From Flavivirga algicola (GTDB lineage Bacteria; Bacteroidota; Bacteroidia; Flavobacteriales; Flavobacteriaceae): 64,000 bases of DNA. Position 1 is the first letter of the stretch. The number at the start of each line of letters is the position of its first letter. The position numbers and the translations under genes were made by a program. Below are positions 27,708 through 43,796 of the stretch, in pieces. The notes beneath the pieces are model-generated. The model was not told the DNA's origin. It made no database searches and worked only from the letters and a program-made list of their open reading frames with translations. The stretch covers positions 186,001 through 250,000 of the forward strand of contig NZ_JABBHF010000003.1 in NCBI RefSeq assembly GCF_012910715.1, written 5' to 3'.

Positions 27708-28760
27708 ATGAAAACAATAAAAGGACCAGCTGTTTTTTTAGCGCAATTTGCAGGAGATAAAGAACCATTCAATAGTTTGGATGGTATGTGTAAATGGGCT
27801 GCAGATTTAGGATATAAAGGCATTCAAATCCCAACATGGGAATCTGGTTTAATAGATGTGGAAAAAGCAGCAGAAAGTCAAACTTATTGCGATGAGTTGA
27901 AAGGGAAAGTAGAATCGTATGGTTTAGAAATTACAGAACTGTCTACACATTTGCAAGGACAGTTGGTCGCAGTAAATCCTGCTTATGATACGATGTTTGA
28001 TGGTTTTGCACCCGAACAGGTTAGAAATAATCCAAAAGCGAGAACAGAATGGGCGATCGATTTTGTGAAAAAATCTGGAACGGCTAGTGGAAGATTAGGC
28101 TTAAAAGCACATGCTACTTTTTCTGGAGCTTTGATGTGGCATACCATGTATCCATGGCCGCAACGTCCTAATGGACTAGTAGAAATGGGTTTCAAAGAAT
28201 TAGCAAACCGTTGGATTCCCATATTAAATCATTTCGACGAACATGGTGTCGATGTATGTTATGAAATTCACCCAGGAGAAGATATTCATGATGGCATCAC
28301 ATTCGAACGCTTTTTAGAAGCAACAAACAATCACAAAAGAGCTAATATACTTTATGATCCGAGCCATTATGTGCTTCAACAGTTAGATTATTTAACATTT
28401 ATAGATCATTACCACGAGCGTATTAAAGCTTTTCATGTTAAAGATGCCGAGTTTAATCCAACAGGAAAACAGGGTGTTTATGGTGGGTATGCCGATTGGA
28501 AAGATAGAGCTGGACGTTTTAGATCATTAGGAGATGGTCAGGTGGATTTTAAAGCAATTTTTTCAAAATTAACAAAATATGAATGTGATTTCTGGGCTGT
28601 TATGGAATGGGAATGTTGTATAAAATCTTCAGAGCAAGGAGCGAGAGAAGGTGCACCTTTCATAAAAAAGCATATCATTGAGGCTGCTGAAAAAGGATTT
28701 GATGATTTTGCTGGGGGAGATACAGATGACGAGCAATTAAAGAAAATACTTGGGCTATAA
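27708..28760 (+). CDS. Sugar phosphate isomerase/epimerase-like TIM-barrel protein (cytosolic)
   Basis: The 350-residue protein lacks a signal and has an AP-endonuclease-2-type TIM barrel with clear metal-site segments: VCYEIHPGEDIHDG, ILYDPSHYVLQQ, FHVKDAEFNPTG and AVMEWECC. Members act as isomerases or epimerases on sugars, and some open or eliminate keto-sugars. The 87-nt gap from the preceding gene holds a short CCTTCC/GGGAGG hairpin but no convincing terminator. It probably handles the keto-sugar together with the preceding oxidoreductase. Confidence 0.87.
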   Translation: MKTIKGPAVFLAQFAGDKEPFNSLDGMCKWAADLGYKGIQIPTWESGLIDVEKAAESQTYCDELKGKVESYGLEITELSTHLQGQLVAVNPAYDTMFDGFAPEQVRNNPKARTEWAIDFVKKSGTASGRLGLKAHATFSGALMWHTMYPWPQRPNGLVEMGFKELANRWIPILNHFDEHGVDVCYEIHPGEDIHDGITFERFLEATNNHKRANILYDPSHYVLQQLDYLTFIDHYHERIKAFHVKDAEFNPTGKQGVYGGYADWKDRAGRFRSLGDGQVDFKAIFSKLTKYECDFWAVMEWECCIKSSEQGAREGAPFIKKHIIEAAEKGFDDFAGGDTDDEQLKKILGL

Positions 28761-28832
28761 TAATGAAATGATTATTTATTTGATGCAGCATGCAATTGAA
28801 GCCCTAAAAGTGAAACTTAAAAACGATATATT

Positions 28833-29639
28833 TTGAATATAAAAGAAACGGCTTTGATAGTCATGCTGGTTTGTTTTTTTGCATGCACTAATAACAAAGA
28901 GAAAGAAAACAAATCGCCTACCGAGGTTAAGCCTGAGGTAGAACTGAAAGAGCCAACAAAGCCAGAAGAAACGGAACTTTATGAACCTGTCCCTCCAACA
29001 GTTAATCCTAAGGGGCAACATGGTACTCCGAGTGATGCTATTGTATTGTTTAATGGGGAAAATTTAGATAATTGGGAGCATACTAAAGATGGCAGTCCAG
29101 CAAAATGGATTTTAAATAAAGATGGCTCTATGACGGTTAAAGATAAATCTGGAGACATCCAAACGAAGCAGAAGTTTGGTAGTATACAATTGCATCTTGA
29201 ATGGCAATCTTCATCAGAGAAAAGAGCAAGTGGCCAAAATAGAAGTAACAGTGGTGTTTTTCTTCAAGAACGCTATGAAGTGCAGGTTTTGGATAATAAT
29301 GATAACGATACATATGTTAATGGGCAGGTTGGATCTATATACAAGCAATCCATTCCTTTAGTTAAGGCTTCAGTGCCAACTGGAGAATGGAATACCTATG
29401 ATATTATTTATCATGCTCCAGAATTTAATTTGGAAGGTGAAAAAACAAAATCGGCTACCATAACCGTATTGCATAATGGCATTTTAATTCAAGATCATTA
29501 TGAAATAAAAGGGACGACACCATATATTGGTTGGCCTAAAAATAACCCACACGGCAAAGGTTCACTAAAGTTACAAGATCATGGTGATAATAGTGGGGTA
29601 AGTTATAGAAATATTTGGATTCGAGAATTGGAAGATTAA
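28833..29639 (+). CDS. DUF1080 (3-keto-disaccharide hydrolase family) lipoprotein, TTG start
   Basis: The protein (268 residues) consists of a lipoprotein signal (VCFFAC, Cys18), a Glu/Pro/Lys-rich linker of about 50 residues, and one DUF1080 domain from IVLFNGENLDNWEHTKDG to LQDHGDNSGVSYRNIWIREL. A stop codon lies just upstream in frame and the first in-frame ATG (28863) would leave only seven residues before the lipidated Cys. TTG at 28833 is therefore the most sensible start. It should be anchored outside the inner membrane and cleave keto-glycosides, judging from family and neighbours. Confidence 0.85.
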   Translation: MNIKETALIVMLVCFFACTNNKEKENKSPTEVKPEVELKEPTKPEETELYEPVPPTVNPKGQHGTPSDAIVLFNGENLDNWEHTKDGSPAKWILNKDGSMTVKDKSGDIQTKQKFGSIQLHLEWQSSSEKRASGQNRSNSGVFLQERYEVQVLDNNDNDTYVNGQVGSIYKQSIPLVKASVPTGEWNTYDIIYHAPEFNLEGEKTKSATITVLHNGILIQDHYEIKGTTPYIGWPKNNPHGKGSLKLQDHGDNSGVSYRNIWIRELED

Positions 29640-29650
29640 ACACTTAAGTT

Positions 29651-31018
29651 ATGACAAATTTATCAAGACGATCTTTTTTGAAATCGACATCGGTGGCATC
29701 TGCTGGTGTGTTAATAATACCTGGGCTATTAGGTTTTTCACCTAGTAGTAAATTAAATATAGCCGTTGTTGGTGTGGGACATAGAGCGGGTTATAACATG
29801 AGAAAAGTAGCAAAAGGAAATAACATTGTGGCATTATGCGATGTCGATGATAATTTTTTGCAAAAGGCATCTGTTGCATTTCCCAAAGCTAAAACATTTA
29901 AAGATTTTAGAGTCATGCTGGATAAGGTGGCCAATGAAATTGATGCTGTAGTTGTTTCTACGCCCGACCATACGCATTTTCCGGTAACAATGGCAGCCAT
30001 GCAGCTAGGTAAACATGTATTTGTAGAAAAACCATTGGCGCATAATATCTGGGAATTACGAACTTTAAAAAAAGCAGCTAAGTATTATAAAGTCGTATCG
30101 CAAATGGGAAACCAAGGGCACACCACCCATGGTATTCGTCTGGTAAAAGAATGGTATGATGCTGGTGTTTTAGGAGATGTTAAAGAAGTGCATGCATGGC
30201 GTGGTGTTAATACATTTAAACCAGGGTTTTATTTTACTAAGCCAGCTAGTTTTCCACCTCCCAAAAATTCTATTCCTCCCACACTTGATTGGGATTTGTG
30301 GCAGGGTCCAGTAAAAGAAAGGCCTTTTAACAAAGCATACGCTCCAAAATCTTGGCGTGGATTTTACGATTTTGGAAGTGGTCAGCTGGGTGATTGGGCT
30401 TGTCATACCATAGATGCCCCTTATTGGGCATTAGATTTGGGGCAGCCTACCAAAGTTAAGGGGGAAATACCAGAAGGTAGTTTTAACGACCGGAACTTTA
30501 TGCCAGATTCTTCTGTGGTTACCTATAAATTTCCCAAACGCGGAAAAAAACCTCCTGTTACTTTAAAATGGCATGAAGGCTTTAGTGCTCCTGATATTGA
30601 AATAAGACCAGAATGGGGTGTTAGTAAATTGCCTGCGAATGGAGGTATGATTATGATTGGAAGTAAAAACACGCTTATTACAGGAGCAAGACCAGAAAAA
30701 CCAAAGTTACTCGTTCCTGAAGAGGAATGGCAAGCATTTTTGGCAAATGCTCCCGATCAAACTATTCCTAGAATTGAAGAAAATAATCCGCATAAAGAAT
30801 GGATTGATGCCATAAAAAATGATACATTGCCAGGGGCTAGTTTTGATTATGCAGCAGATTTGACCGAAATGGCTCTTGTTGGAGTTCTTGCTCAACGTTT
30901 TGGTGGTACGATAAAATATGACGCTAAAAAAATGAAGATAAAAAATCGTAAAGAATTAAATGCATATATCAAAGAGCCAGTAAGAGAAGGGTGGGCTTAC
31001 GGAGAGAATCTTTGGTAA
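29651..31018 (+). CDS. Gfo/Idh/MocA-family oxidoreductase with Tat signal
   Basis: The 455-residue protein has a Tat signal (SRRSFLKSTSVASAGV), a Rossmann domain (LNIAVVGVGHRAGYN) and the canonical EKP motif (HVFVEKPLAHN). A long C-terminal domain includes FYDFGSGQLGDWACHTIDAP, resembling the larger exported members. It ends the six-gene operon, 11 nt after the DUF1080 gene, and ends with REGWAYGENLW. It is a likely periplasmic glycoside C3 oxidase or its reverse. No intrinsic terminator is apparent after it. Confidence 0.88.
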   Translation: MTNLSRRSFLKSTSVASAGVLIIPGLLGFSPSSKLNIAVVGVGHRAGYNMRKVAKGNNIVALCDVDDNFLQKASVAFPKAKTFKDFRVMLDKVANEIDAVVVSTPDHTHFPVTMAAMQLGKHVFVEKPLAHNIWELRTLKKAAKYYKVVSQMGNQGHTTHGIRLVKEWYDAGVLGDVKEVHAWRGVNTFKPGFYFTKPASFPPPKNSIPPTLDWDLWQGPVKERPFNKAYAPKSWRGFYDFGSGQLGDWACHTIDAPYWALDLGQPTKVKGEIPEGSFNDRNFMPDSSVVTYKFPKRGKKPPVTLKWHEGFSAPDIEIRPEWGVSKLPANGGMIMIGSKNTLITGARPEKPKLLVPEEEWQAFLANAPDQTIPRIEENNPHKEWIDAIKNDTLPGASFDYAADLTEMALVGVLAQRFGGTIKYDAKKMKIKNRKELNAYIKEPVREGWAYGENLW

Positions 31019-31100
31019 AGAGCAATAAGAAAAGTTGCTTTTCTTTAAATGACTATAATTCAAAATTTTAGAACTGTGGTCGTTTTTTAATTAGTATTTA

Positions 31101-31108
31101 TACTTTTG
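31101..31108 (+). promoter_or_regulatory. Promoter -7 element of the arginine/proline operon
   Basis: TACTTTTG is an exact match to the Bacteroidetes -7 consensus TAnnTTTG. It lies 134 bp upstream of the first arginine leader peptide. The -33 element (TTTG-like) is poorly conserved, so the call rests on the -7 match and position. Confidence 0.55.
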
Positions 31109-31241
31109 TAGCTTCAAAAAGAAGTACTAAAAACTGAATATTTAAAAACAAAATCATTGTTATTCTAGGAAATTAATAATTTTTAGCAAATAGTTATTCT
31201 TTTTTGCTGGGTTTTTAAAAATAAAATTCTAGCTTTACCAC
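31109..31241 (+). other. Leader RNA segment upstream of the first arg leader peptide
   Basis: These 133 bases are AT-rich. They can form AGCAAA...TTTGCT (around 31180-31217) followed by GGGTTTTT, possibly an extra regulatory hairpin. No open frame is seen. Confidence 0.3.
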
Positions 31242-31316
31242 ATGAAAAATTTAAAAAGTAAAATACGTTACTCTGTTCCCGGTTTGCCCGCACGACGTCG
31301 CCGTCGTTGCATCTAG
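31242..31316 (+). CDS. Arginine leader peptide 1
   Basis: The frame has 25 codons including the stop at 31314-31316. The peptide starts MKNLKSKIRYSVPG and ends LPARRRRRCI, with five consecutive Arg codons (CGA CGT CGC CGT CGT at 31292-31306). It precedes an operon of arginine and proline genes and is embedded in a nested terminator, the hallmark of ribosome-mediated attenuation. The segment GGTTTGC (31281-31287) just before the Arg run pairs with GCAAACC after the stop. A ribosome stalled on Arg codons would cover it and block the terminator. The codon run is seen; the mechanism is inferred. Confidence 0.88.
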   Translation: MKNLKSKIRYSVPGLPARRRRRCI

Positions 31317-31357
31317 TCTTTATTTCCGCAAACCTAAAACGTAATTTTAATTTTTTT
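31260..31357 (+). terminator. Nested attenuator terminator overlapping arg leader peptide 1
   Basis: Three helices nest. The outer is AAAATACGTT (31260-31269) with AACGTAATTTT (31338-31348, one bulge). The middle is GGTTTGC (31281-31287) with GCAAACC (31328-31334), a perfect 7-bp helix. The inner is ACGACG (31292-31297) with CGTCGT (31302-31307) within the Arg codons. A run of seven T (31351-31357) follows. Termination is inferred from the T run. Confidence 0.7.
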
Positions 31358-31424
31358 CATAGTGTCCAAAACATATTTCATAGCATTTCAAAATTTAGTT
31401 AATTTCTTAGTTAACACATATATT

Positions 31425-31454
31425 ATGCGCCGTATTTTTCCGCGTCGCCCGTAA
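31425..31454 (+). CDS. Arginine leader peptide 2
   Basis: A ten-codon frame reads MRRIFPRRP then TAA, with four Arg among nine residues. It lies 109 nt after leader 1 and 86 nt before the first structural gene. Right at its end is a small stem, CGCCC (31446-31450) / GGGTG (31455-31459), before a T-rich stretch. The high Arg content so close to leader 1 suggests a second attenuation or stalling site. The frame is very short, so chance remains possible. Confidence 0.55.
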   Translation: MRRIFPRRP

Positions 31455-31539
31455 GGGTGTACTTCTATTTTTGAACTAGGTGAGTCCAGTTCAGCAATCA
31501 AAAAAAGGTTAAAGTTCAAATTAAAATAGATCCAAATAA

Positions 31540-32157
31540 ATGGAGATTGTAATTGCTAATAAATCACATACTAAGTACGCAGAAATTATTTGCGAAACTA
31601 TTGCAGAGTCAGCAAAAGTTAGAGGGACGGGTATTGCCAAACGTACACCAGAATATATCTCAACAAAAATAGAGAATGGTAATGCTGTTATAGCTTTAGA
31701 TGGTGACATATTTGCTGGTTTTTGCTATATAGAACTTTGGGGACACGGCAAGTTTGTTGCTAACTCAGGTTTAATTGTACATCCCGATTATAGAGGCAAA
31801 GGCTTGGCAAAAAAGATAAAACACAAAGTTTTTAAGCATTCGAGAACGAAGTTTCCAGATGCTAAAGTATTTAGTATCACAACGGGTTTGGCTGTTATGA
31901 AATTAAATAGTGATTTGGGGTATAAGCCCGTAACGTTTTCAGAATTGACAGACGATCAAACATTTTGGGACGGTTGTCAAACCTGTCAGAATTATGATGT
32001 TTTAACACGTACAAATCGTAAAATGTGTTTGTGTACAGGTATGTTGTATGATGCAAAAGCAAACGAAAAAGTAGAGTCAAAAAAAATAAAAGAAAAGGTT
32101 TTTAAAAGATTAAAGCATATTAAAGAAACCATGTTTTTAAAAAAAGATAAAAAATGA
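31540..32157 (+). CDS. GNAT acyltransferase, probable N-acylglutamate synthase
   Basis: The 205-residue protein has a GNAT fold with the acyl-CoA loop VHPDYRGKGLAKKIK (about residues 82-96). A distinctive C-terminal region has four cysteines, CQTCQNYD and KMCLCTG. As first gene of the arginine operon, overlapping argG by 4 nt, it most likely acylates glutamate (acetyl or succinyl), replacing classical ArgA/ArgJ, neither of which is present. A related Bacteroides protein has, as I recall, been assigned this role by mutant fitness data. The Cys group may bind metal. Confidence 0.82.
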   Translation: MEIVIANKSHTKYAEIICETIAESAKVRGTGIAKRTPEYISTKIENGNAVIALDGDIFAGFCYIELWGHGKFVANSGLIVHPDYRGKGLAKKIKHKVFKHSRTKFPDAKVFSITTGLAVMKLNSDLGYKPVTFSELTDDQTFWDGCQTCQNYDVLTRTNRKMCLCTGMLYDAKANEKVESKKIKEKVFKRLKHIKETMFLKKDKK

Positions 32158-33329
32158 AGAAATTAGTAATAGCATATAGTGGCGGATTAGATACATCTTA
32201 TTGTGCGGTTAGCTTATCTAAAACACACGAAGTACATGCGGTGAGTGTGAACACAGGAGGGTTTACAAAAGAAGAAATTGAGCATATTGAAAGCAATGCC
32301 TATAAAATGGGGGTCGCTACTTATAAAAATATAGATGCCGTAGCCACATTTTATCAAAAAGTAGTAAAGTATTTGATTTTTGGTAATGTTTTAAAAAATA
32401 ACACGTATCCGCTATCTGTAAGTGCAGAACGAATTATACAGGCTATCGAAATTGTAGAGTACGCAAAAAGTATAGGGGCAGGATATATTGCCCATGGTAG
32501 TACAGGAGCAGGAAATGATCAGGTGAGGTTTGATATGATTTTTCAAACATTGGCTCCAGAAATTGAGATTATTACGCCTATTAGAGATGAAAAATTAACA
32601 AGACAAGAAGAAATAGATTATTTAAAATCTAATGGTATTGATATGTCTTGGGAAAAAGCACAATATTCAATAAACAAAGGGCTTTGGGGAACGAGTGTTG
32701 GAGGTTCTGAAACGTTGACATCCGAAAAACCATTGCCTAGTGAGGCTTATCCATCGCAATTGGAAAAAGAAGGAGAGGAAAAAGTAACCCTCACATTTAA
32801 AAATGGTGAATTTATAGCATTGAATGGTAAAGAAAATACTTCAGAGGTTAATATTGAATTATTAAACGATATCGCTTCAGGTTATGCTATAGGAAGAGAT
32901 ATTCATGTAGGCGATACCATTGTTGGTATAAAAGGTCGTGTTGGTTTTGAAGCTGCCGCCGCTTTAATTACGGTAAAGGCACACCATTTATTGGAAAAGC
33001 ATACGCTCACCAAATGGCAGCTTCAACATAAAGAATACTTATCGAGCTTTTATGGCATGCATTTGCATGAAGGTCAGTATTTAGACCCTGTGATGAGAAA
33101 TATAGAAGCCTTTTTAGAAAGTAGTCAAGAAAAAGTAAGTGGTGATGTTATAGTCACTTTAAAACCCTATCATTTTTCATTAGATGGTATCGTATCCGAA
33201 CATGATTTAATGAACGCGAAATTTGGAAGCTACGGAGAGATCAATAAAGGATGGACCGCAGATGAAGCCAAAGGATTTATTAAAATTATTGGAAATCAAA
33301 ATAAAATATATCAACAAGTAAACTCATAA
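32154..33329 (+). CDS. argG: Argininosuccinate synthase
   Basis: It joins citrulline and aspartate with ATP to form argininosuccinate. The 391-residue protein has the PP-loop YSGGLDTSYCAVSL at its N-terminus and the family motif HGSTGAGNDQVRFD (around 117-130), which contacts citrulline and aspartate. TSVGGSETL and the C-terminal oligomerisation region follow. The start overlaps the GNAT gene (ATGA), implying coupled translation. Length suits the Bacteroidetes type. Confidence 0.97.
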   Translation: MKKLVIAYSGGLDTSYCAVSLSKTHEVHAVSVNTGGFTKEEIEHIESNAYKMGVATYKNIDAVATFYQKVVKYLIFGNVLKNNTYPLSVSAERIIQAIEIVEYAKSIGAGYIAHGSTGAGNDQVRFDMIFQTLAPEIEIITPIRDEKLTRQEEIDYLKSNGIDMSWEKAQYSINKGLWGTSVGGSETLTSEKPLPSEAYPSQLEKEGEEKVTLTFKNGEFIALNGKENTSEVNIELLNDIASGYAIGRDIHVGDTIVGIKGRVGFEAAAALITVKAHHLLEKHTLTKWQLQHKEYLSSFYGMHLHEGQYLDPVMRNIEAFLESSQEKVSGDVIVTLKPYHFSLDGIVSEHDLMNAKFGSYGEINKGWTADEAKGFIKIIGNQNKIYQQVNS

Positions 33330-33332
33330 GTT

Positions 33333-34310
33333 ATGATTGAAGTTGGCATTATAGGAGGCGCTGGTTATACAGCAGGAGAATTGGTTAGGTTATTAGTATC
33401 GCATCCAAAAACAAATATTAATTTTGTGTTCAGTACATCCAATGCTGGTAATAAAATTAGTCATATCCATCAAGATTTAGTGGGCTCTTTAGATTTGAAA
33501 TTCACAGATACCATTAACCCAGATGTCGATGTGTTATTTCTATGTTTAGGTCATGGTAATTCAGTAAAGTTTTTAGAGAACAATAGGTTTTCAGAGAAAA
33601 CTAAGATTATTGATTTAGGAAATGATTTTAGGTTGGAAAAAGATAAGATTTTTGATGGTAAGAACTTTGTATACGGTTTGCCAGAATTGCAAAAAGAAGC
33701 TGTTAAATCCGCTAGTTATATTGCCAATCCAGGCTGTTTTGCAACAGCTATTCAATTAGGATTACTGCCATTAGCTGAAAACAATTTATTAAACAGCGAT
33801 GTGCATATCAATGCTGTAACAGGTGCTACAGGAGCAGGTACGTCATTATCTGCAACGACGCATTATACATGGAGAGATAATAATTTTTCATATTACAAAC
33901 CCTTTACACATCAGCATTTAGGAGAAATTAACCAGTCTGTAAAACAATTGCAAAATGATTTTTCATCAGAGATTTTATTTATGCCAAACAGAGGGAATTT
34001 TTCAAGAGGTATTTTTGCGACACTTTATACAGATTTTGAAGGTACTGTAGAAGAAGCCATCACTATTTATAAAGACTTTTATAAAGATGCCAAGTTTACA
34101 TTTATTTCAGATAAAACCATTCATTTAAAACAAGTAGTTAATACTAATAAATGTATTATACATTTGCATAAACACAATGATAAATTATTGATTACAAGTG
34201 TGATTGATAACTTGTTAAAAGGCGCTTCGGGCCAAGCTATTCAAAATATGAATTTAATGTTTGGGTTAGAGGAGACAGAGGGATTACAATTAAAAGCTAC
34301 CTACTTTTAA
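33333..34310 (+). CDS. argC: N-acyl-gamma-glutamyl-phosphate reductase
   Basis: It reduces N-acyl-glutamyl phosphate to the semialdehyde with NADPH. The 325-residue protein starts with the Rossmann motif IGGAGYTAGELVRLL. The catalytic Cys lies in YIANPGCFATAIQLGLLPL, the ArgC signature, and the active-site loop around PFTHQHLGEINQ contains the conserved His. It follows argG by 3 nt. A REP-like hairpin pair occupies the 116-nt gap before proC. Confidence 0.96.
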   Translation: MIEVGIIGGAGYTAGELVRLLVSHPKTNINFVFSTSNAGNKISHIHQDLVGSLDLKFTDTINPDVDVLFLCLGHGNSVKFLENNRFSEKTKIIDLGNDFRLEKDKIFDGKNFVYGLPELQKEAVKSASYIANPGCFATAIQLGLLPLAENNLLNSDVHINAVTGATGAGTSLSATTHYTWRDNNFSYYKPFTHQHLGEINQSVKQLQNDFSSEILFMPNRGNFSRGIFATLYTDFEGTVEEAITIYKDFYKDAKFTFISDKTIHLKQVVNTNKCIIHLHKHNDKLLITSVIDNLLKGASGQAIQNMNLMFGLEETEGLQLKATYF

Positions 34311-34318
34311 TTAATACC

Positions 34319-34415
34319 TTTTTCATTTCCGCGGTTTATGCTGGACTCATTTCAGTAAGGCGGAAATCTTAAGGAATATTGATAAATAGATTTCCGCCTT
34401 CGCGGAAATGAAAAA
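34319..34415. repeat. REP-like inverted repeats between argC and proC
   Basis: The outer arms TTTTTCATTTCCGCG (34319-34333) and CGCGGAAATGAAAAA (34401-34415) pair perfectly, as do AAGGCGGAAATCT (34357-34369) and AGATTTCCGCCTT (34388-34400). The right copy folds as TTTCCGC/GCGGAAA, a compensated version of the TTCCTGC/GCAGGAA hairpin found elsewhere in the window. The left copy carries about 23 extra bases in its loop. Confidence 0.85.
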
Positions 34416-34426
34416 AAGAGAATAAA

Positions 34427-35221
34427 ATGAAAATAGCCATAATAGGAACCGGAAACTTAGGAAGTGCAATCGCTAAAGGACTTATAAAAAATAAGTCATT
34501 TACGTCGTTGTATTTAAGTGATAAAAACACATCGGCAGTAAAAGCTTTTGAAGAAGAACCTTATGTTACGATTACAAGTGACAATGTTGAGGCGGTTGAA
34601 GCATCCGATATTGTCATTTTTGCATTGCAACCCCGACATGTAGAAGGTGTTTTAAAAAGTGTTGCACCAAGTATAAACGCTAATCATATTATACTTTCGG
34701 TAGCTGCTGGTTTCGAGATTTCCAGAATAGAAAATATTATTGGGAATGATAAAAACATTATTCGTGTTATGCCAAATACGGCTATATCGATAGGAAAATC
34801 CATGACATGTCTTTCTGCGAACGATAAAGGCCAGGAAAAAATTGAATTGGCAAAAGATATTTTTAATCAGTTGGGAGTTACCATGGTTATTCCAGAAGAA
34901 CAACTACAGGCCGCAACAGTTATTTGTGCCAGTGGTATAGCGTTTTGGATGCGTTTGGTACGTGCCACGACCCAAGGAGCCATTCAATTAGGTTTTGAAG
35001 CACATGAAGCGCATGAATTGGCTGTTCAGACTTGTTTTGGTTCGGCCAGTTTATTAATTGAATCGGGAAGGCACCCCGAACAGGAGATTGACCGTGTAAC
35101 AACACCTAGCGGATGTACTATTGAAGGACTGAATGCTATGGAACATCAAGGTTTGAGCTCCGCTTTAATACAAGGTATTGTGTCCTCATTCGAAAAAATT
35201 AACCAAATTAAAAAGAATTAA
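34427..35221 (+). CDS. proC: Pyrroline-5-carboxylate reductase
   Basis: It carries out the last step of proline synthesis, reducing pyrroline-5-carboxylate with NAD(P)H. The 264-residue protein has the Rossmann motif IIGTGNLGSAIAKG and the C-terminal ProC signature region VTTPSGCTIEGLNAMEHQGL. It lies in the arginine operon between argC and argD. The stop codon is separated from the argD start by 1 nt. Confidence 0.95.
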   Translation: MKIAIIGTGNLGSAIAKGLIKNKSFTSLYLSDKNTSAVKAFEEEPYVTITSDNVEAVEASDIVIFALQPRHVEGVLKSVAPSINANHIILSVAAGFEISRIENIIGNDKNIIRVMPNTAISIGKSMTCLSANDKGQEKIELAKDIFNQLGVTMVIPEEQLQAATVICASGIAFWMRLVRATTQGAIQLGFEAHEAHELAVQTCFGSASLLIESGRHPEQEIDRVTTPSGCTIEGLNAMEHQGLSSALIQGIVSSFEKINQIKKN

Positions 35222-35222
35222 A

Positions 35223-36368
35223 ATGCCATTATTTGACGTTTACCCATTATACAATGTCACTCCTGTTTCAGGAAAGGACATTCTCGTTTATGATAACGAG
35301 GGCAGCGAATATTTGGATCTTTATGGCGGGCATGCCGTTATTTCTATAGGTCATGCACATCCAAATTATGTTGAAGCCATTACCAATCAGGTTAATGCAT
35401 TGGGGTTTTATTCCAATGCGATTCAAAACCCTTTGCAAAAACAACTAGCAGATAAAATTGAAGTATTATCTGGATGTAAGGATTATGAGTTGTTTTTATG
35501 TAATTCGGGAGCAGAAGCCAACGAAAATGCTTTAAAATTAGCTTCATTTAAAACAGGAAAGAAGCGTGTTGTAGCGTTTAGTAATGGGTTTCATGGACGT
35601 ACATCGGCGGCCGTGGCAGCAACCGATAATCAAAATATTATTGCACCAATAAATGCACAACAAGCTGTAACCATTTTACCTTTAAATGATATTGAAGGTG
35701 TTAAAAAAGAATTGGAAAAAGGAGATGTTTGTGCCGTCATTGTAGAGTTTATACAAGGTGTTGGTGGTTTAGATCAAGGTACAGCGGCATTTTTCGAGCA
35801 AGTCGATGCACTTTGTAAAGCCAATAATACCATGTTTATTGCTGATGAAATTCAGTGTGGTTATGGGCGTTCAGGCAAGTTTTTTTCGTTTCAACATTAC
35901 AACGTTACACCAGATATTATCTCCATGGCAAAAGGTATGGGAAATGGGTTTCCAATAGGTGGGATTTTAATTCATCCAGCTATCGAAGCTAAATTTGGTA
36001 TGTTAGGAACAACTTTTGGTGGGAACCATTTGGCATGTGCAGCAGGTTTAGCGGTTTTAAATACCATTGAAGAAGAAAATCTTATTGAAAATACGAATAA
36101 CATTTCGGAGTATTTTATTGAAAAAGCAAAAACCATTCCGCAGATAAAAAATATAAAAGGAAGAGGTTTGATGCTAGGTTTAGAATTCGATTTTGAAGTT
36201 GGAGACTTGCGCAAAGCATTAATATATAATCATAAAATATTTACTGGTGGCGCATCCAATAAAAAGTTGTTAAGAATATTACCGCCATTAACGATTAAAA
36301 AAGAGCACGTAGATCAATTTTTTATAGCATTGGCTAAAGTGTTGAAAGAAGTTGAAGCGTCTGTATAA
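35223..36368 (+). CDS. argD: N-acylornithine aminotransferase
   Basis: This class III PLP aminotransferase converts N-acyl-glutamate semialdehyde to N-acylornithine and could also act as ornithine aminotransferase. The start at 35223 (MPLFDVYPLYNVTP) is chosen over an in-frame ATG at 35178 inside proC, because it follows the proC stop and begins at the family's normal N-terminus, giving 381 residues. FLCNSGAEANENALKLA binds PLP phosphate, and the Lys lies in ISMAKGMGNGFPIGG. Confidence 0.93.
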   Translation: MPLFDVYPLYNVTPVSGKDILVYDNEGSEYLDLYGGHAVISIGHAHPNYVEAITNQVNALGFYSNAIQNPLQKQLADKIEVLSGCKDYELFLCNSGAEANENALKLASFKTGKKRVVAFSNGFHGRTSAAVAATDNQNIIAPINAQQAVTILPLNDIEGVKKELEKGDVCAVIVEFIQGVGGLDQGTAAFFEQVDALCKANNTMFIADEIQCGYGRSGKFFSFQHYNVTPDIISMAKGMGNGFPIGGILIHPAIEAKFGMLGTTFGGNHLACAAGLAVLNTIEEENLIENTNNISEYFIEKAKTIPQIKNIKGRGLMLGLEFDFEVGDLRKALIYNHKIFTGGASNKKLLRILPPLTIKKEHVDQFFIALAKVLKEVEASV

Positions 36369-36430
36369 AGAAGTAGAATTAATACTGAACTCGTATACTG
36401 AACATACTGGAAAAACCGAATACTAAAAAA

Positions 36431-37627
36431 ATGAATACACTATTATCCATAGAAAAAAGAAATGCTGTGTTACTTAGAATGGCAGAGCTTTTAGAACAAG
36501 AACGAAACGCAATTATTGCTATTAATAAAACGGATTTAGAAGCTTATAATGGAGATGATATTTCAATGTATGATAGGCTTAAAGTGGACGATGCCAAGGT
36601 GAATGAAATGATTGCTTCGGTAACACATTTGGCTTCTCAAGAAGACCCAGTGGGCGTGGAACGCTTTAGTTTTAAACATGATAATGGTATGCAGGTTTAT
36701 AATAAAACAGCATCGTTTGGAACTGTTTTGATTATTTACGAATCCAGACCAGATGTGACTGTTGAGGCAGCAGGTATCGCTTTTAAATCGGGTAATAAAA
36801 TATTACTAAAAGGCGGTAAAGAATCACTTAATTCAAATTTGAAAATTGTAACGTTGTGGCGCCAAGCTTTAAAAGAACATGAGGCTTCGACAGATTGGGT
36901 GGCGTATTTACAGTTTAACAGAACAGAAACACAAGCTTTTTTAGAGAAGCCAACACAGAAAGTTGACTTAATTGTTCCTCGAGGTGGCGAAAGATTAATC
37001 GCTTTTGTAAAGCAACATGCCACATGCCCTGTTATTGTTAGTGGGCGCGGTAATAATTTCGTGTATGTACACCCAGAGGCAGATCAACAAATAGCATTAG
37101 ACTTGATAGTGAATGGAAAAACAGCTAAAATATCAGCATGTAATGCCATTGATAAAGTGATAATAGATAAAAATTTACCTAATAAAAAAGATTTTATAGA
37201 AAACTTAATTTCTAAATTACAAGCATTTAATGTTGAAATCTTAGGTGATGAACATATTTGTGAATTTGATGAGGTAAAAGAAATATCTTCAAATGAAATC
37301 TGGTTCGAAGAGTTTTTGGATTATAAGATAGCTGTTGGAGAAATTGCTTCAAATGAAGAAGCTATAGCTATGATAAACAAGTACTCTGGTGGACATTCAT
37401 CAGTCATAGTCACAACCAACGAAGCTGAAGCGAAATTGTTTATGGAAAATGTAGATACGGCGGCGGTATATCACAATGCGTCCTCGCGTTTTACAGATGG
37501 TGGACAATTAGGACTAGGTGGAGAGTTGGCCATTAGCACAGATAAATTACACCAAAGAGGTCCTATAGGCTTGCAGCATTTGGTAACTAACAAGTGGTAT
37601 GTTCATGGCAATGGACAAACAAGGTAA
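36431..37627 (+). CDS. proA: Gamma-glutamyl phosphate reductase
   Basis: It reduces gamma-glutamyl phosphate to glutamate-5-semialdehyde in proline synthesis. The 398-residue aldehyde dehydrogenase-superfamily protein has VLIIYESRPDVTVEAAGI, the conserved GNKILLKGGKES and the catalytic Cys in ISACNAIDKVI. The C-terminal end includes FTDGGQLGLGGELAIST, the ProA signature. It precedes proB by 2 nt, reversing the usual proBA order. Confidence 0.95.
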   Translation: MNTLLSIEKRNAVLLRMAELLEQERNAIIAINKTDLEAYNGDDISMYDRLKVDDAKVNEMIASVTHLASQEDPVGVERFSFKHDNGMQVYNKTASFGTVLIIYESRPDVTVEAAGIAFKSGNKILLKGGKESLNSNLKIVTLWRQALKEHEASTDWVAYLQFNRTETQAFLEKPTQKVDLIVPRGGERLIAFVKQHATCPVIVSGRGNNFVYVHPEADQQIALDLIVNGKTAKISACNAIDKVIIDKNLPNKKDFIENLISKLQAFNVEILGDEHICEFDEVKEISSNEIWFEEFLDYKIAVGEIASNEEAIAMINKYSGGHSSVIVTTNEAEAKLFMENVDTAAVYHNASSRFTDGGQLGLGGELAISTDKLHQRGPIGLQHLVTNKWYVHGNGQTR

Positions 37628-37629
37628 CC

Positions 37630-38391
37630 ATGAAAAAGAAAAGAATATTACTTAAAGTAGGATCTAATACGCTTACCAAAGAAACCAATAACATTTCAAG
37701 AGGTAAGATTGAAGACATTGCAAATCAAATAGCGCAACTACAGGATACTTGCGAGTTTGTTATCGTAAGTTCTGGAGCTATAGCCGTAGCAAAGCAATTT
37801 GTGAAACTAGAAAGTAAGCAAAAAGACGTTTTTGTAAAGCAAGCCTTGGCATCTATTGGTCAGCCACACCTAATAAGGATTTATCAGGAGATTTTTAGAG
37901 AATATGGCTTGTTAACATCACAATGTCTATTGTCCTATTCAGACTTTGAAAAACAGGAAAGTAAAAGCAATATTGTGAATACGATTAATGTACTTGTTAA
38001 TAATAATTATATACCTATTATTAATGAAAACGATACGGTGGCTACTGACGAAATTAAGTTTGGAGATAATGATAAATTAGGGGCACTTACAGCGTCCCTT
38101 TTAAATGCCGATTTGTTTATAATAGCGACTAATACAAATGGGATTTATACCAAAGAATCTATTGAAAATGGCGTACCGAAAACCATTAAAGTTGTTTCAG
38201 ATTTATCTGAATTAAAAAAACAGGTTGTTAACTCAAAATCATCACACGGAAGTGGAGGCATGCAATCTAAAATAGAAGCCGCTTCAGTAACGAAAAAACA
38301 AAATATAGAAACATGGATTGTAAACGGATTGGAAGATGATTTTATAACCAACGCTATGGATAATAAAGTTCCGTTTACTAAAATAAAATAA
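37630..38391 (+). CDS. proB: Glutamate 5-kinase, short form without PUA domain
   Basis: It phosphorylates glutamate, the first step of proline synthesis. The start at 37630 (MKKKRILLKVGSNTL) is preferred to an upstream in-frame ATG within proA. This gives 253 residues, an amino-acid kinase domain only, lacking the C-terminal PUA domain of the ~367-residue E. coli enzyme. Motifs are VSSGAIAVAKQ, NENDTVATDEIKFGDND and the ATP-site segment SHGSGGMQSKIEAA. Feedback behaviour may differ in forms without PUA. Confidence 0.94.
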   Translation: MKKKRILLKVGSNTLTKETNNISRGKIEDIANQIAQLQDTCEFVIVSSGAIAVAKQFVKLESKQKDVFVKQALASIGQPHLIRIYQEIFREYGLLTSQCLLSYSDFEKQESKSNIVNTINVLVNNNYIPIINENDTVATDEIKFGDNDKLGALTASLLNADLFIIATNTNGIYTKESIENGVPKTIKVVSDLSELKKQVVNSKSSHGSGGMQSKIEAASVTKKQNIETWIVNGLEDDFITNAMDNKVPFTKIK

Positions 38392-38398
38392 TGGAGAC

Positions 38399-38431
38399 AG
38401 ACCTGTCAGGTTTTTAAAACCTGACAGGTCT
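38399..38431. repeat. Perfect inverted repeat between proB and argF'
   Basis: AGACCTGTCAGGTTTT (38399-38414) and AAAACCTGACAGGTCT (38416-38431) form a 16-bp perfect dyad around one T. Inside an operon it may act as an RNA processing or polarity element. The sequence resembles a repeat common in flavobacterial intergenic DNA. Confidence 0.8.
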
Positions 38432-38449
38432 TAAAATAACAATTAAACA

Positions 38450-39391
38450 ATGAAAAACTATACTTCCATACATGATATAGATAATATAGATTCATGGATT
38501 GAAGAAGCAAAAGCTTTAAAACAAGACCCTTTAAAACACGGGGAACTAGGAAAAAACAAAACCATTGGCTTATTATTCTTCAATTCCAGTTTGCGTACCC
38601 GTTTAAGTACTCAAAAAGCGGCATTAAACTTAGGAATGGATCCTATTGTTATGAATGTGTCTGGAGATGCCTGGGGTATCGAATTTGGAGATGGGACGGT
38701 TATGAACGGAAATACAGCAGAACATATAAAAGAGGCAGCAGCTGTCGTATCACAATACTGTGATATTATTGCAGTACGAGCATTTCCAACATTAACAGAC
38801 AAGGCAAAAGATGAAAGCGAGCAAGTTTTAAAATCGTTTGTTAAATATGCATCCGTTCCTATTGTAAATATGGAGAGTGCTACAGGGCATCCGTTACAAG
38901 GGTTAACCGATGCATTAACCATTTCAGAACATGCTAAAGTTGCAAAACCTAAAGTGGTGTTAAGTTGGGCGCCACATGTTAGAACCTTGCCTCATGCGGT
39001 AGCAAATAGTTTTGTACAAGCTATGCAGAAAATGGATGTCGAATTTGTAATTGCGCATCCTGAAGGTTACGATTTAAATCCTGAAATTACTGGTGATACA
39101 CCTATAATTTACAATCAGGAGGAAGCTTTTGCAAATGCTGATTTTGTGTATACTAAAAACTGGAGTTCATATACAGATTACGGAAAAATTTTAAATGAAG
39201 ATGCTAACTGGATGATTACTAAAGAAAAATTAGGGGACGCTAAATTCATGCATTGCTTACCAGTAAGGCGAAATGTAGTCGTAGAAGATGCAGTTTTAGA
39301 TAGTGATAGTTCGTTGGTTATTGAACAGGCGAATAACAGAACTTATGCAGCTCAGTTGGTACTAAAAAAACTATTGGAAAATTTAAAATAA
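38450..39391 (+). CDS. argF': N-acylornithine carbamoyltransferase (probably N-succinylornithine type)
   Basis: It carbamoylates N-acylornithine to N-acylcitrulline, a variant arginine route. The 313-residue protein has the carbamoyl-phosphate loop as FNSSLRTRLSTQKAALNLGM, like the Bacteroides fragilis succinyl enzyme, and HCLPVRRN near the C-terminus. At the specificity position (Pro90 in the B. fragilis enzyme, Glu92 in the Xanthomonas acetyl enzyme) it has Ala90 (NTAEHIKEA). As I recall, replacing that Glu by small residues switches the acetyl enzyme to succinylornithine, so succinyl specificity is favoured here. Confidence 0.92.
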   Translation: MKNYTSIHDIDNIDSWIEEAKALKQDPLKHGELGKNKTIGLLFFNSSLRTRLSTQKAALNLGMDPIVMNVSGDAWGIEFGDGTVMNGNTAEHIKEAAAVVSQYCDIIAVRAFPTLTDKAKDESEQVLKSFVKYASVPIVNMESATGHPLQGLTDALTISEHAKVAKPKVVLSWAPHVRTLPHAVANSFVQAMQKMDVEFVIAHPEGYDLNPEITGDTPIIYNQEEAFANADFVYTKNWSSYTDYGKILNEDANWMITKEKLGDAKFMHCLPVRRNVVVEDAVLDSDSSLVIEQANNRTYAAQLVLKKLLENLK

Positions 39392-39402
39392 TTAAAAAAA
39401 CC

Positions 39403-39421
39403 CCCTCTCCTTTGGAGAGGG
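39403..39421. repeat. Hairpin repeat before argB
   Basis: CCCTCTCC (39403-39410) pairs with GGAGAGGG (39414-39421) in the 43-bp gap between argF' and argB. There is no T run, so it is not a terminator. It belongs to the same kind of short hairpin inserts seen elsewhere in this operon. Confidence 0.7.
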
Positions 39422-39434
39422 CGGAGGGAGAAGC

Positions 39435-40211
39435 ATGGAAAAACTATCCATAGTAAAAATAGGAGGAAATATTATTGAAGACGAAACATCTTTAAAAGCC
39501 TTTTTAAAACTGTTTTCTAACTTAGAAGGAAAGAAGATCTTGGTACATGGTGGTGGCAAGCGCGCTACGCATATCGCTTCTAAGCTAGGTATAGAATCTA
39601 AAATGATAAACGGTAGGCGTATAACAGATGCCGAAACTTTAGAAGTAATCACTATGGTTTACGGTGGACTGGTTAACAAAAATATAGTAGCCAAACTCCA
39701 AGCTTTAAACACCAATGCTATTGGTTTAACAGGAGCCGACATAAATAGCATAGCATCAGATAAAAGGCCCGTAAAAGAGATCGATTTTGGGTTTGTTGGA
39801 GACGTTAAACAAGTCGCTCACGAATCTATAGATAAACTCATTCAGGCGAATTTCACACCAGTTTTTTGTGCTATCACGCATGATGGAAAAGGACAGTTAT
39901 TAAATACCAATGCAGATACCATTACCTCTCAAGTAGCCGTGGGGATGAGTCATTTGTACGAAACCTCTATTTATTATTGTTTTGAATTGAATGGCGTTCT
40001 GGAAGATATTAATGATAAGAACTCCGTTGTAAAACATATCGACTCAAAGACTTATAAAGAGTTGTTAGAAAAAGGGATCATTGCCGATGGGATGCTGCCA
40101 AAGCTAGAAAACTGTTTTGATGCATTAAATAATGGAGTAAGTACAATTAATATGGGAAATACATCGATGTTAACTCAAGAAAATGATAATTTTACAACCA
40201 TAACTTTATAG
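39435..40211 (+). CDS. argB: N-acylglutamate kinase
   Basis: It phosphorylates N-acylglutamate with ATP. The 258-residue amino-acid kinase has the nucleotide-binding KIGGNIIED and LVHGGGKRATHI near the N-terminus, and NGRRITDAETLEVITMV and the LTGADINSI segment typical of ArgB. Whether its substrate is acetyl- or succinylglutamate follows the operon's acyl group and cannot be decided from the sequence. It precedes argE by 1 nt. Confidence 0.95.
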   Translation: MEKLSIVKIGGNIIEDETSLKAFLKLFSNLEGKKILVHGGGKRATHIASKLGIESKMINGRRITDAETLEVITMVYGGLVNKNIVAKLQALNTNAIGLTGADINSIASDKRPVKEIDFGFVGDVKQVAHESIDKLIQANFTPVFCAITHDGKGQLLNTNADTITSQVAVGMSHLYETSIYYCFELNGVLEDINDKNSVVKHIDSKTYKELLEKGIIADGMLPKLENCFDALNNGVSTINMGNTSMLTQENDNFTTITL

Positions 40212-40212
40212 T

Positions 40213-41277
40213 ATGACGCAGCAAGAATTAACAAATGATGCCATATCACTTTTAAAAAAGCTGATAGAAACGCAATCATTTTCTTCAGAAGAAGATCAAA
40301 CAGCATTGCATATAGAAGATTGGTTCAAGCGTTATAAGATCGATTATAAAAGAACGCAAAATAATGTATGGGCTATCAATAAGTATTTTGACGAAAGTAA
40401 ACCAACGCTTTTACTAAATTCGCATCACGATACAGTTAAGCCCAATAGTGCCTACACTAAAAATCCATTTAAAGCTACAGTAGAAGATGGTAAACTGTAT
40501 GGTTTGGGAAGCAATGATGCGGGAGGCTGTTTGGTATCATTAATTGCTACATTTACGCATTTCTATAATCAAAAGAATTTAAAATATAACCTAGTCATAG
40601 TCGCTTCTGCGGAAGAAGAGAGTAGTGGGCCAAACGGACTAAATAGTATGTTGGCTATTATCCCAAAAGTAGATGTTGCGATTGTAGGTGAACCAACATT
40701 GATGAATTTAGCGGTGGCCGAAAAAGGCTTAGTGGTTTTTGATGCTGTGGTTAAAGGGACTCCTAGTCATGCCGCACACCCTAATGATAACAATGCCATT
40801 TACAATTCAATTGAAGTGCTGCAATGGTTTAAAGATTTTAAATTTGAAAAAGGATCGGAAGCTTTAGGAGATGTAAAATTAACCGTAACACAAATTAATG
40901 CAGGAAAACAACATAATGTTGTTCCAGCAGACGTACAATTAGTCATAGATGTTCGTGTAAATGATGCTTATAGCAATGCAGAGATAGCAGAAATATTGCA
41001 AAAGCAATCACCGTGTACAAGTATCACGCCCCGTAGTTTGCGTTTAAATTCATCGTGTATCCCTGTAGATCACGATTTGGTTAAAGCTGGTATAGCCATT
41101 GGTAGAACGACATATGGTTCACCAACCCTGTCAGATCAGGCAGTGCTATCATGTCCGTCTTTAAAATTAGGACCAGGAGATAGTACCCGTTCGCATTCGG
41201 CTGATGAGTTTATTTATGTGAATGAGATTGAAGAAGGAGTGGGTATTTATATTGAATTATTAGAGAAAGTGCTTTAA
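40213..41277 (+). CDS. argE: M20-family deacylase (N-acylcitrulline/N-acylornithine deacylase)
   Basis: It removes the acyl group, in this pathway most likely from N-acylcitrulline after the ArgF' step. The 354-residue metallopeptidase-family enzyme has the zinc-site motifs NSHHDTVKP and GLGSNDAGG and the catalytic Glu in ASAEEESSGPNGL. A lid domain (about 170-280) and the last ligand region (RSHSADEFI) follow. A chain of repeats separates it from argH. Confidence 0.92.
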   Translation: MTQQELTNDAISLLKKLIETQSFSSEEDQTALHIEDWFKRYKIDYKRTQNNVWAINKYFDESKPTLLLNSHHDTVKPNSAYTKNPFKATVEDGKLYGLGSNDAGGCLVSLIATFTHFYNQKNLKYNLVIVASAEEESSGPNGLNSMLAIIPKVDVAIVGEPTLMNLAVAEKGLVVFDAVVKGTPSHAAHPNDNNAIYNSIEVLQWFKDFKFEKGSEALGDVKLTVTQINAGKQHNVVPADVQLVIDVRVNDAYSNAEIAEILQKQSPCTSITPRSLRLNSSCIPVDHDLVKAGIAIGRTTYGSPTLSDQAVLSCPSLKLGPGDSTRSHSADEFIYVNEIEEGVGIYIELLEKVL

Positions 41278-41291
41278 AGTAACAAGATAAA

Positions 41292-41502
41292 AGAACCAAG
41301 AATCAAGACTAGATATTGGTTAATCGAGTAACAGTTTAAGACAAAAAGAAACGTATTGTTACTCTGAGCGCAGTCGAAGGATCTCAAACAAAATAAAAAG
41401 TATAAAAAAGAATTAAGAATATAGAATCAAGAAGCAAAATATAAATGTAGTTCATTAACAGTCTTTGCTCTAAAAGCGAAGTGGTCTTAATATCTTGGTT
41501 CT
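41292..41502. repeat. Imperfect inverted repeat between argE and argH
   Basis: AGAACCAAGAATCAAGAC (41292-41309) is the imperfect complement of GTCTTAATATCTTGGTTCT (41484-41502). Between the arms, at 41361-41385, lies CTCTGAGCGCAGTCGAAGGA, another sequence common as an intergenic repeat in flavobacteria. No gene is seen in this 296-bp gap. Confidence 0.55.
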
Positions 41503-41534
41503 AAATTTTAAGAATATTAGTGAAGTTAAAAAAA

Positions 41535-41560
41535 GATTCCCGTCTTCACGGGAATGACAA
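41535..41560. repeat. Single REP-like hairpin before argH
   Basis: GATTCCCGTCTTCACGGGAATGACAA matches the right arm of the repeats at 9344-9369 and 43088-43113, with compensated changes in the stem (TTCCCGT/ACGGGAA). It ends 13 bp before the argH start and overlaps a spurious N-terminal extension of that frame. Confidence 0.8.
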
Positions 41561-41573
41561 AAATATAATAAGG

Positions 41574-42848
41574 ATGAAACTCTGGGATAAAGGTATATCA
41601 ATCGACAAAAAAATAGAACAATTCACCGTTGGAAACGATAGAGAAATAGATATTCATATCGCCAAATATGATATTATAGCATCTAAGGCGCATGCAAAAA
41701 TGCTTCAAAAGATCGGTATCATTACTGTTGAAGAATTGGTTGAATTATTGGGAGGGTTGAAGGTTTTAGAAACCCAGATTGAAAATGGCACCTTTGTTAT
41801 CGATTCTCAATTTGAAGATGTACATTCTAAAATAGAATTCGAACTTACTAAATCATTGGGAGAAGTAGGTAAAAAAATCCATACCGCACGCTCTAGAAAC
41901 GATCAGGTTTTAGTGGCTTTACATTTGTATTATAAAGAAAATTTAGGCATAGTAAAAGAAAAAACAAAAGAGCTGTTTACAACACTTCTTGGGTTAGCAG
42001 AAACCTATAAAGACAAGGTGTTACCGGGGTATACCCATTTACAAGTAGCGATGCCATCGTCATTCGGATTATGGTTTTCAGCCTATGCAGAGCTCATGAT
42101 AGATGATGTGTATTTGCTTAATGCAGCCATTCAAACAGTAAATCAAAATCCATTGGGATCTGCCGCAGGTTACGGAAGCTCATTTCCTATTGATAGAGAA
42201 TTAACCACCAAAGAAATGCAATTTTCTACTCTAAAGTATAATGTTGTAGCAGCTCAAATGAGTCGTGGTAAGAGTGAGCGAACCATAGCAACTAGTTTAG
42301 GAAGTTTGTGCAATACCATGTCTCGTTTCGCTATGGACATCTGTTTGTATATGAGTCAGAACTTCGGATTTATTTCCTTCCCAGACGAATTAACTACAGG
42401 TAGTAGCATTATGCCCCATAAAAAGAATCCAGACGTATTTGAATTGATTCGAGGCAAGTGTAACAAAATTCAAGCATTGCAAAGTGAAATGATTTTAATA
42501 ACCAATAATTTACCAAGTGGTTATCATAGAGATTTTCAGTTATTAAAAGAGAATATAATAGCTGCGTTCGAAGAGATTAAAGACATTCTGGATATTTTTA
42601 ATTATTCCATTCAACAAATCATTGTAAAAGATGTGGATATTAATAGTGATTTGTATAAATATCTATTTACAGTAGATAATATAAACACACTGGTTGTTGA
42701 AGGACAGAGTTTTAGAGAAGCTTACCAGAAAATTGGCGGACAGGTACAAGATGGTACCTATGTTCCTGATACTTCTAAACATCACACACATATTGGAAGT
42801 ATCCATAATTTGAGTTTAGATAAGATTCGAGCTAAGTTTCCTGATTAA
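41574..42848 (+). CDS. argH: Argininosuccinate lyase
   Basis: It cleaves argininosuccinate to arginine and fumarate, the last step. The start at 41574 (MKLWDKGISIDKKI) is chosen because it has an AAGG-like sequence upstream and begins at the family N-terminus; the longer frame from 41520 reads through a REP-like repeat. That leaves 424 residues. Motifs are HTARSRNDQVLVALHLYYKE, GYTHLQVAMP and the catalytic signature TGSSIMPHKKNPD. It is the last gene of the operon. Confidence 0.95.
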   Translation: MKLWDKGISIDKKIEQFTVGNDREIDIHIAKYDIIASKAHAKMLQKIGIITVEELVELLGGLKVLETQIENGTFVIDSQFEDVHSKIEFELTKSLGEVGKKIHTARSRNDQVLVALHLYYKENLGIVKEKTKELFTTLLGLAETYKDKVLPGYTHLQVAMPSSFGLWFSAYAELMIDDVYLLNAAIQTVNQNPLGSAAGYGSSFPIDRELTTKEMQFSTLKYNVVAAQMSRGKSERTIATSLGSLCNTMSRFAMDICLYMSQNFGFISFPDELTTGSSIMPHKKNPDVFELIRGKCNKIQALQSEMILITNNLPSGYHRDFQLLKENIIAAFEEIKDILDIFNYSIQQIIVKDVDINSDLYKYLFTVDNINTLVVEGQSFREAYQKIGGQVQDGTYVPDTSKHHTHIGSIHNLSLDKIRAKFPD

Positions 42849-42897
42849 TTTGATTGAAATAATTCTTAGGTGCAGAGCATCTCGGTTTCTGCTAGTC

Positions 42898-43113: not shown

Positions 43114-43173
43114 AACGTATTTAATTCATATTCTTTAACTCATCAGAAAATATAATTAAACATTTGGCTATTT

Positions 43174-43778: not shown

Positions 43779-43796
43779 ACTTTTTTTTAATTCAAA

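Follow-up and report, generated by a model that had tools for sequence, protein, structure and literature searches.

Two short reading frames rich in arginine codons stand one behind the other upstream of an arginine/proline operon in Flavivirga algicola, and the question raised by this locus is whether they sense charged Arg-tRNA and, if so, whether they read one signal or two. An earlier note on this DNA had described them as arginine-rich leader peptides at 31242-31316 and 31425-31454 that could give a graded or two-input response. We analyzed the window, the whole stretch of 64,000 nucleotides in which the locus lies, together with genomes of relatives; L and G numbers below denote loci and genomes, and all window coordinates are on the + strand.

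Tandem arginine leaders before an arginine/proline operon

Both leader ORFs are present in the order that had been described. Leader peptide 1 (MKNLKSKIRYSVPGLPARRRRRCI, 31242-31316) carries the run of five consecutive Arg codons (CGA CGT CGC CGT CGT) near its C-terminus; the run is not the literal end of the ORF, as the earlier note had put it, since Cys-Ile follows. The second ORF, 31425-31454, reads MRRIFPRRP with the reported four Arg in nine residues, and its frame is open upstream to a GTG at 31362, giving a 30-residue ORF (MSKTYFIAFQNLVNFLVNTYIMRRIFPRRP, 31362-31454) of which the shorter ORF is the C-terminal part. In 86 of 87 distinct loci this frame runs without a stop over 22 or more codons before hairpin A, the hairpin at the leader-2 end, compared with 17 and 22 loci for the other frames. 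An ATG, GTG or TTG stands at codon -30 to -23 in 74 of the 87 loci (31, 22 and 21, respectively), the starts cluster at -29/-28 (48) and -25/-24 (20), and CTG is absent from codons -34 to -21. Because of this pile-up of start codons and the absence of CTG, GTG 31362 is the likelier start; the leader-2 ORF itself stands, but the ATG at 31425 probably truncates it.

The gene order behind the leaders is GNAT-argG-argC-proC-argD-proA-proB-argF-argB-argE-argH, the first gene encoding a GNAT-family acetyltransferase (31540-32157; Pfam PF00583, E 4e-7) and the arg/pro cluster extending over 32154-42848 (with argF entered as argF'). These are arginine and proline genes, as had been proposed, according to family matches: argC, argB and an N-acetylornithine-type carbamoyltransferase pass NCBIfam cut-offs, argG and an ArgE/DapE-type deacylase match NCBIfam families with scores below the cut-offs, and proC (P5CR_dimer), argD (class-III aminotransferase), proA (Aldedh), proB (AA_kinase) and argH (Lyase_1) match in Pfam, the exact names of these last five being our own assignment beyond the Pfam family. 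Of 105 fetched loci, some of them repeats, 103 have the GNAT gene as the first window gene found behind the element.

The tandem arrangement is conserved in Flavobacteriaceae. In a first survey, the GNAT protein was searched against 60 relatives, 34 of which had a match, and upstream DNA was read. The GNAT bait was also used on GTDB species genomes, and the 480 nt upstream were scanned in the best 80 of 146 stretches, a set spanning about 20 named genera, including Flavivirga, Algibacter, Confluentibacter, Mariniflexile, Hyunsoonleella, Aestuariivivens, Polaribacter, Ulvibacter and Olleya. Among these best 80 of 146 loci, leader 1 was detected in 73 (a count that includes at least one misassigned ORF, the leader-2-type ORF of L261), leader 2 in 63, hairpin B, which follows leader 2, in 72, both leaders in 57, and both leaders with hairpin B in 50. 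The same detector reported leader 1, leader 2, hairpin B and both leaders 12, 52, 0 and 1 times in 800 dinucleotide shuffles and 1, 1, 0 and 0 times in 80 reverse complements. Many of the 17 loci lacking a detected leader 2 belong to Polaribacter. In a sample of 149 family genomes, which overlaps the 80 named loci so that the two sets are not independent, an exact pattern of leader-2 end plus hairpin B was found in 79, and a reversed control pattern matched once. The pattern occurs once per genome in 78 of the 79; G141 has a second match (L112) with no window gene found behind it. All 79 genomes are among the 102 that contain argG and none is among the 47 without it. Of the 23 argG genomes lacking the exact pattern, 11 have a relaxed hairpin B with a stem of 5 pairs or more, so that the hairpin is present in about 90 of the 102 argG-bearing genomes. 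The remaining 12 were classified by eye: L185 has a decayed hairpin B; L142, L187, L190 and L194 have a hairpin without the B loop; L128 and L193 have a terminator-like hairpin instead; L196 has leader 1 with no recognisable leader 2; L183 has an Arg-bearing ORF and no clear hairpin B; L135 (G160), which was left out of the relaxed search, has a leader of the type seen in genus g146 (guessed to be Flavobacterium); and in L181 and L184 the leader type was not assignable. Within the genus, 9 of 11 relatives have both leaders (L002-L009, L126), and among these the Arg codons change synonymously and the number of Arg varies in frame. Disruption of the leader-2 frame in close relatives, which the earlier note had named as evidence against its reading, is mostly not seen, given the 86 open frames of 87; the exceptions are G010 (L010), with leader 2 and no leader 1, and G005 (L127), with another kind of leader. 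The leader-1 and leader-2 units can occur apart.

A leader-1 homologue with an ATG start and at least two Arg in its last 12 residues is found in 44 of the 87 loci, 6 of them with odd positions or without the expected leader-2 start; GTG-started forms also occur (L035, L023). Arg accounts for 221 of 971 leader-1 codons in these 44 loci (22.8%, a fraction inflated by the Arg criterion) versus 2.6% in 13 window genes, and for 235 of 2002 leader-2 codons (11.7%), counted in 74 of the 87 loci with two pattern-selected codons left out. CGU and CGC make up about 85% of the leader Arg codons (187 of 221 in leader 1; 200 of 235 in leader 2, whose C-rich ending is partly forced by hairpin A), whereas they are only 39 of 114 Arg codons in the 13 window genes, where AGA is commonest. 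In leader 1, third codon positions change somewhat more than the other two (1057 versus 794 and 762 in 18 sequences; 1553 versus 1009 and 1054 in 22), and within the genus the differences are small (22, 29, 28). Across about 20 named genera both leaders stand before an arginine operon and keep Arg codons while most other residues vary, which bears out this part of the earlier proposal.

A putative promoter -7-like element (TAGCTTTA, 31230-31237) begins 12 nt before leader 1 and is a near match to TAnnTTTG, the Bacteroidota promoter consensus. In 18 of the 44 loci an exact TAnnTTTG starts 9-18 nt ahead of the leader-1 ATG (in 37 of 44 a TAnnTTTN), compared with 16 of 1740 random positions. Where leader 2 starts with ATG, the exact element precedes it in 17 of 28 loci failing the leader-1 criterion and in 0 of 5 tandem loci, so that a promoter-like element stands before whichever leader comes first.

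RNA structures of the leader region

Hairpin A (CGCCC-GTAA-GGGTG, 31446-31459) is formed by the last Arg/Pro codons of leader 2 and carries the stop codon in its loop; neither it nor the hairpin behind it figures in the earlier note. In the alignment, 95.5% of its cells are paired, and its arms are nearly invariant, partly owing to locus selection, so that covariation gives it no support; it was also recovered by folding prediction. A spacer of 54% U and no clean U run (31460-31471) separates it from hairpin B (TGAACT-A-GG-TGAGT-CC-AGTTCA, 31472-31493), and the distance from the GGG of A to the GG of B is 20-24 nt in 81 loci. Hairpin B consists of a variable 6-bp stem, a bulged A, 2 bp and the pentaloop UGNGY. 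RNAalifold on 84 pattern-selected elements gave the same hairpin B as the hand drawing. This alignment (A1) holds 84 of the 87 loci, chosen by exact pattern, and the invariance of CGCCC, GGG and GGTG.GTCC within it is therefore by construction. In the 12-pair structure, 95.9% of cells pair across the 84 elements, 65 cells are changed on both sides versus 19.1 in shuffles (0 of 500 shuffles reached this number), and sliding the structure by 1-3 columns lowers pairing to 14-63%; six of the eight pairs of hairpin B are changed on both sides in some species. In addition, the inner GG/CC becomes GA/UC in the argG-anchored loci L131, L188 and L180, which supports the two-pair inner helix and the UGNGY loop. 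Hairpins A and B together fold moderately better than shuffles (z -2.3), and the leader-2 region of the window hardly better (z -1.5).

A model of A plus B (R1), run with stricter filters on 196 genomes of the order, matched 13 genomes, once each and all Flavobacteriaceae, and gave no match in 17 listed genomes of g146. A B-only model, insensitive to forms with longer bulges, was run on 38 genomes; its 8 matches below E 0.01 all lie at the arg leader, and the weaker ones (E 0.07-1) include some arg sites. Among 4227 Rfam models scanned over window positions 28000-45000 at E<=1, the only match was a below-threshold GlmZ at 44372, and a scan of seven relatives at E<=0.1 gave none; hairpin B is without an Rfam relative.

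Several roles for hairpin B were considered. SD-like pairing of its loop (AGGUG..UCC) with the 16S rRNA 3' end is disfavoured by the joint change of GG/CC to GA/UC in L131, L188 and L180. A binding site for the first gene's product is disfavoured by L126, which keeps A and B before another GNAT gene, and by L091 (G117), which keeps B where GNAT was not found. As to a regulon element, every strong match of the B-only search of 38 genomes lay at the arg leader. As to a pseudoknot of the B loop with the CGCC of A, L020/L133 keeps B without the CGCC. An outer helix around A competing with B, in which leader codons would pair with the A-B spacer and B arm across the family, was unsupported, 1486 of 2000 permutations being as good. 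The sequence TAGGTGNGTCC occurs twice in the window's own genome, the second copy lying inside a galactokinase-like gene on the opposite strand.

In the leader-1 region, a possible long-range helix, H1, would join 31257-31269, about the leader-1 codons for K-S/N-K-I-R, to 31338-31351, which runs into a U7 tract (31351-31357) before the leader-2 start. This tract may be a terminator-like tail or part of the leader-2 initiation region, and its position is T-rich in 38 aligned tandem loci (alignment A2, 38 of the 44). Support for H1 is mixed. In H1, 81.6% of cells are paired versus 40-51% in slid versions, a pair count not independent of the helix, which was drawn by hand from the sequences, and its both-side changes do not exceed those of the slid versions (6 pairs versus 3-7; 19 cells versus 8-25). 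Its own arms beat swapped arms (0 of 2000 permutations as good, in a test inflated by relatedness), an advantage missing within the genus, where L001 ranks 25th of 38. RNAalifold on the leader-1 region predicted no pairs, and in a control 34 of 500 shuffles reached the both-side pair number and 170 of 500 the pair types. The region 31236-31370 folds at -27.4 kcal/mol (z -3.9), with the best fold in another register than H1.

Other arrangements were seen in relatives. By eye, L135-L140 of g146 have, upstream of GNAT, a leader with CGG and AGA Arg codons and a C-terminus around SPEVRM, lying over a hairpin like TACTTC-TCCC-GAAGTA, and no hairpin B; L141, of another family, has upstream of GNAT an Arg-rich leader ending YRRRPVRV, followed by a terminator-like hairpin (AATGGT-TACGT-ACCATT plus TTATTT); and L146-L148 show no leader ORF upstream of GNAT and palindromes like AGATAAAATATCT instead, which could be bound by a transcription factor acting on the arg operon. 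In L126-L129 the original GNAT was not found before argG: in L126 another GNAT gene (Pfam PF00583) takes its place behind an intact leader of the original type, and L127/L128 have a leader of another type. A recurrent stretch like AACGAAAGGGGCTYRYGCCGACGATTTAGAGTTA lies upstream of the leader in L192/L261, L181 and L193, and one of its frames reads ERGLCRRFRV in L261. The sequence TTCTATTT follows leader stops in 12 of 87 loci and in 4 of 44, where shuffling gives means of 0.3 and 0.1, standing at 31460-31471 in the window and after leader 1 in relatives, as if the two leader units were related.

A proposed ribosome-sensed switch and its alternatives

We consider it probable, with moderate confidence, that the element switches the arg/pro operon in response to arginine starvation, which ribosomes would sense at two units placed one after the other. 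Transcription would start, probably just before leader 1, and ribosomes would translate leader 1 and then leader 2. When charged Arg-tRNA is scarce, mainly that reading CGU/CGC, they would stall on the Arg codons at the ORF ends, and when it is plentiful they would pass over these codons and be released. On leader 2, a stalled ribosome would cover hairpin A, which is folded from the same codons, and one stalled on leader 1 may be expected to disturb folding there, including that of H1. With these structures held open, transcription would continue into the operon. Arg codons occur in both leaders, so that a single input read twice in a row is simpler than the graded or two-input response that had been suggested; placed in series, the two units would make the answer to that one signal sharper or deeper. 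The layout does not dictate the sign of the response, because hairpin A overlaps the stop codon and a ribosome would cover it for a while in either state. The mixed support for H1, the slight folding advantage of the leader-2 region and the change of one leader-2 Arg codon to Cys in L005 also count against the switch.

The control codons before their own biosynthetic operon agree with the leader attenuator that had been proposed, but a terminator-antiterminator pair common to the family was not found for leader 2, for which one family-wide helix was tested. A T5 run follows hairpin B in 6 of 81 loci, and with so few U runs behind it hairpin B is not an ordinary intrinsic terminator. For leader 1, the terminator candidate is H1 with the U tract. 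L127, L128 and L193 have, in place of hairpin B at this locus, a hairpin with a U-rich stretch behind it. In L128, a shortened transcript is predicted to pair the leader codons with the 5' arm of the replacing hairpin, which looks like ordinary attenuation in a single lineage whose folds are near those of shuffles (z -1.5 and -0.6). L126 carries both leaders, A and B before a different GNAT gene, so that the element does not depend on the original GNAT. We class the element as acting in the manner of a leader-peptide attenuator and do not count it as proven to be of the trp/his type. A bolder form of this reading, which we offer tentatively and think doubtful as a whole, is a family-wide serial double gate for one amino acid in which leader 1 would control whether transcription or translation gets as far as leader 2 and leader 2 whether it gets to the operon, with hairpin B a new cis-acting RNA dedicated to the operon, itself no terminator, that would act on the ribosome, RNA polymerase or Rho.

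A serious rival, possible although we would not expect it, is that stalling, instead of acting on an intrinsic terminator, determines how stable the mRNA is or whether Rho gains access to it. Release at the stop would then uncover a site for loading or cleavage in the region of the two hairpins and the G-poor sequence that leads up to the first gene, and a stall would mask it. Both leaders have their Arg codons no more than a few codons away from the stop, the stretch from B to GNAT has 15% C and 6% G versus 8-26% G before seven other window genes, and the scarcity of U runs after B fits as well; in speF, Rho and RNase G are described as acting with an arginine-sensing ORF (PMC6386406). The terminator-like hairpins found at the same place in a few relatives speak against this rival.

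It is unlikely, in our view, that hairpin B is the true sensor or effector, as an RNA bound by a ligand, a protein or the polymerase, with the ORFs only timing its folding. Its near-fixed loop in a compensated stem and its normal occurrence as a single copy per genome by the arg operon would suit such a role, but L128, L142 and L145, judged by eye, keep Arg-bearing leaders without the B loop, the g146 leader has no B at all, and a dedicated binder for a single site would be unusual.

A different kind of sensing, in which a nascent peptide ending in RRP would respond to free arginine or a related metabolite and stall at Pro-stop, seems to us quite improbable. TnaC and SpeFL are arrest peptides to which such a model may be likened. 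In leader 2 a stop directly follows R-P in 79 of 87 loci, a feature that the search pattern did not fix, although it did fix the terminal R-P; 8 of the 87 lack this stop, however, and the R-P is also forced by hairpin A. The remaining residues vary, and the leader-2 codon positions change almost equally family-wide (7330, 7620 and 7575, in pairs of 40 sequences; 92, 112 and 129 within the genus, where differences are small), so that Arg codons seem to be kept rather than a peptide. No conserved peptide beyond the control codons was found in the 87 loci and the 40-sequence codon comparison. The variation of the other residues thus favours Arg-codon (tRNA) sensing. Finally, that the leaders are chance open frames over an RNA conserved for something else is hardly credible, for the little third-position bias of leader 2 would allow it but the frame, start and Arg enrichment tests contradict it.

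Comparison with known systems

The literature that we searched says little about how Bacteroidota control their amino-acid operons. The search, which is no proof of absence, found neither an arginine leader for arginine biosynthesis in Bacteroidota nor tandem leaders for the same amino acid. If the proposed switch is correct, a large bacterial family would for the most part regulate its arginine synthesis in this way, with the unusual feature that two leader peptides in series serve a single amino acid, and its natural variants (leader 1 only, leader 2 only, hairpin B replaced by a terminator-like hairpin) are ready-made comparisons.

An Arg-type T-box riboswitch would also sense Arg-tRNA, but the Rfam scans of window positions 28000-45000 and of seven relatives contained no T-box match. 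The trp and his attenuators have a short ORF rich in codons for their own product, near the promoter and before the biosynthetic operon. The flavobacterial locus likewise has short Arg-rich ORFs near a putative promoter before an operon making arginine; unlike trp and his, it has two ORFs in series with the Arg codons at their ends, a stop codon inside a hairpin and an extra hairpin with a near-fixed loop, and a family-wide terminator-antiterminator pair was not found.

In the same family, leader-peptide attenuation has been inferred before amino-acid operons of Flavobacterium psychrophilum (PMC9723704); the idea is the same, and the available part of that text names no arginine operon, tandem leaders or hairpin of this kind. 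The main texts of PMC4833913 and PMC2965389 do not mention arginine. Salmonella orf34 senses arginine for speF by two Arg codons (PMC6386406), and resembles the present leaders in carrying Arg codons in a leader ORF; it differs in being one ORF of conserved sequence that controls ornithine decarboxylase, not arginine biosynthesis, through Rho and RNase G. In Salmonella mgtCBR, the tandem leader ORFs mgtM and mgtP answer ATP and Pro-tRNA (PMC3641672). Here too two leader ORFs stand in tandem before one operon, in 57 of the best 80 of 146 loci, but in an unrelated phylum, and both flavobacterial leaders are Arg-rich, which argues against different signals.
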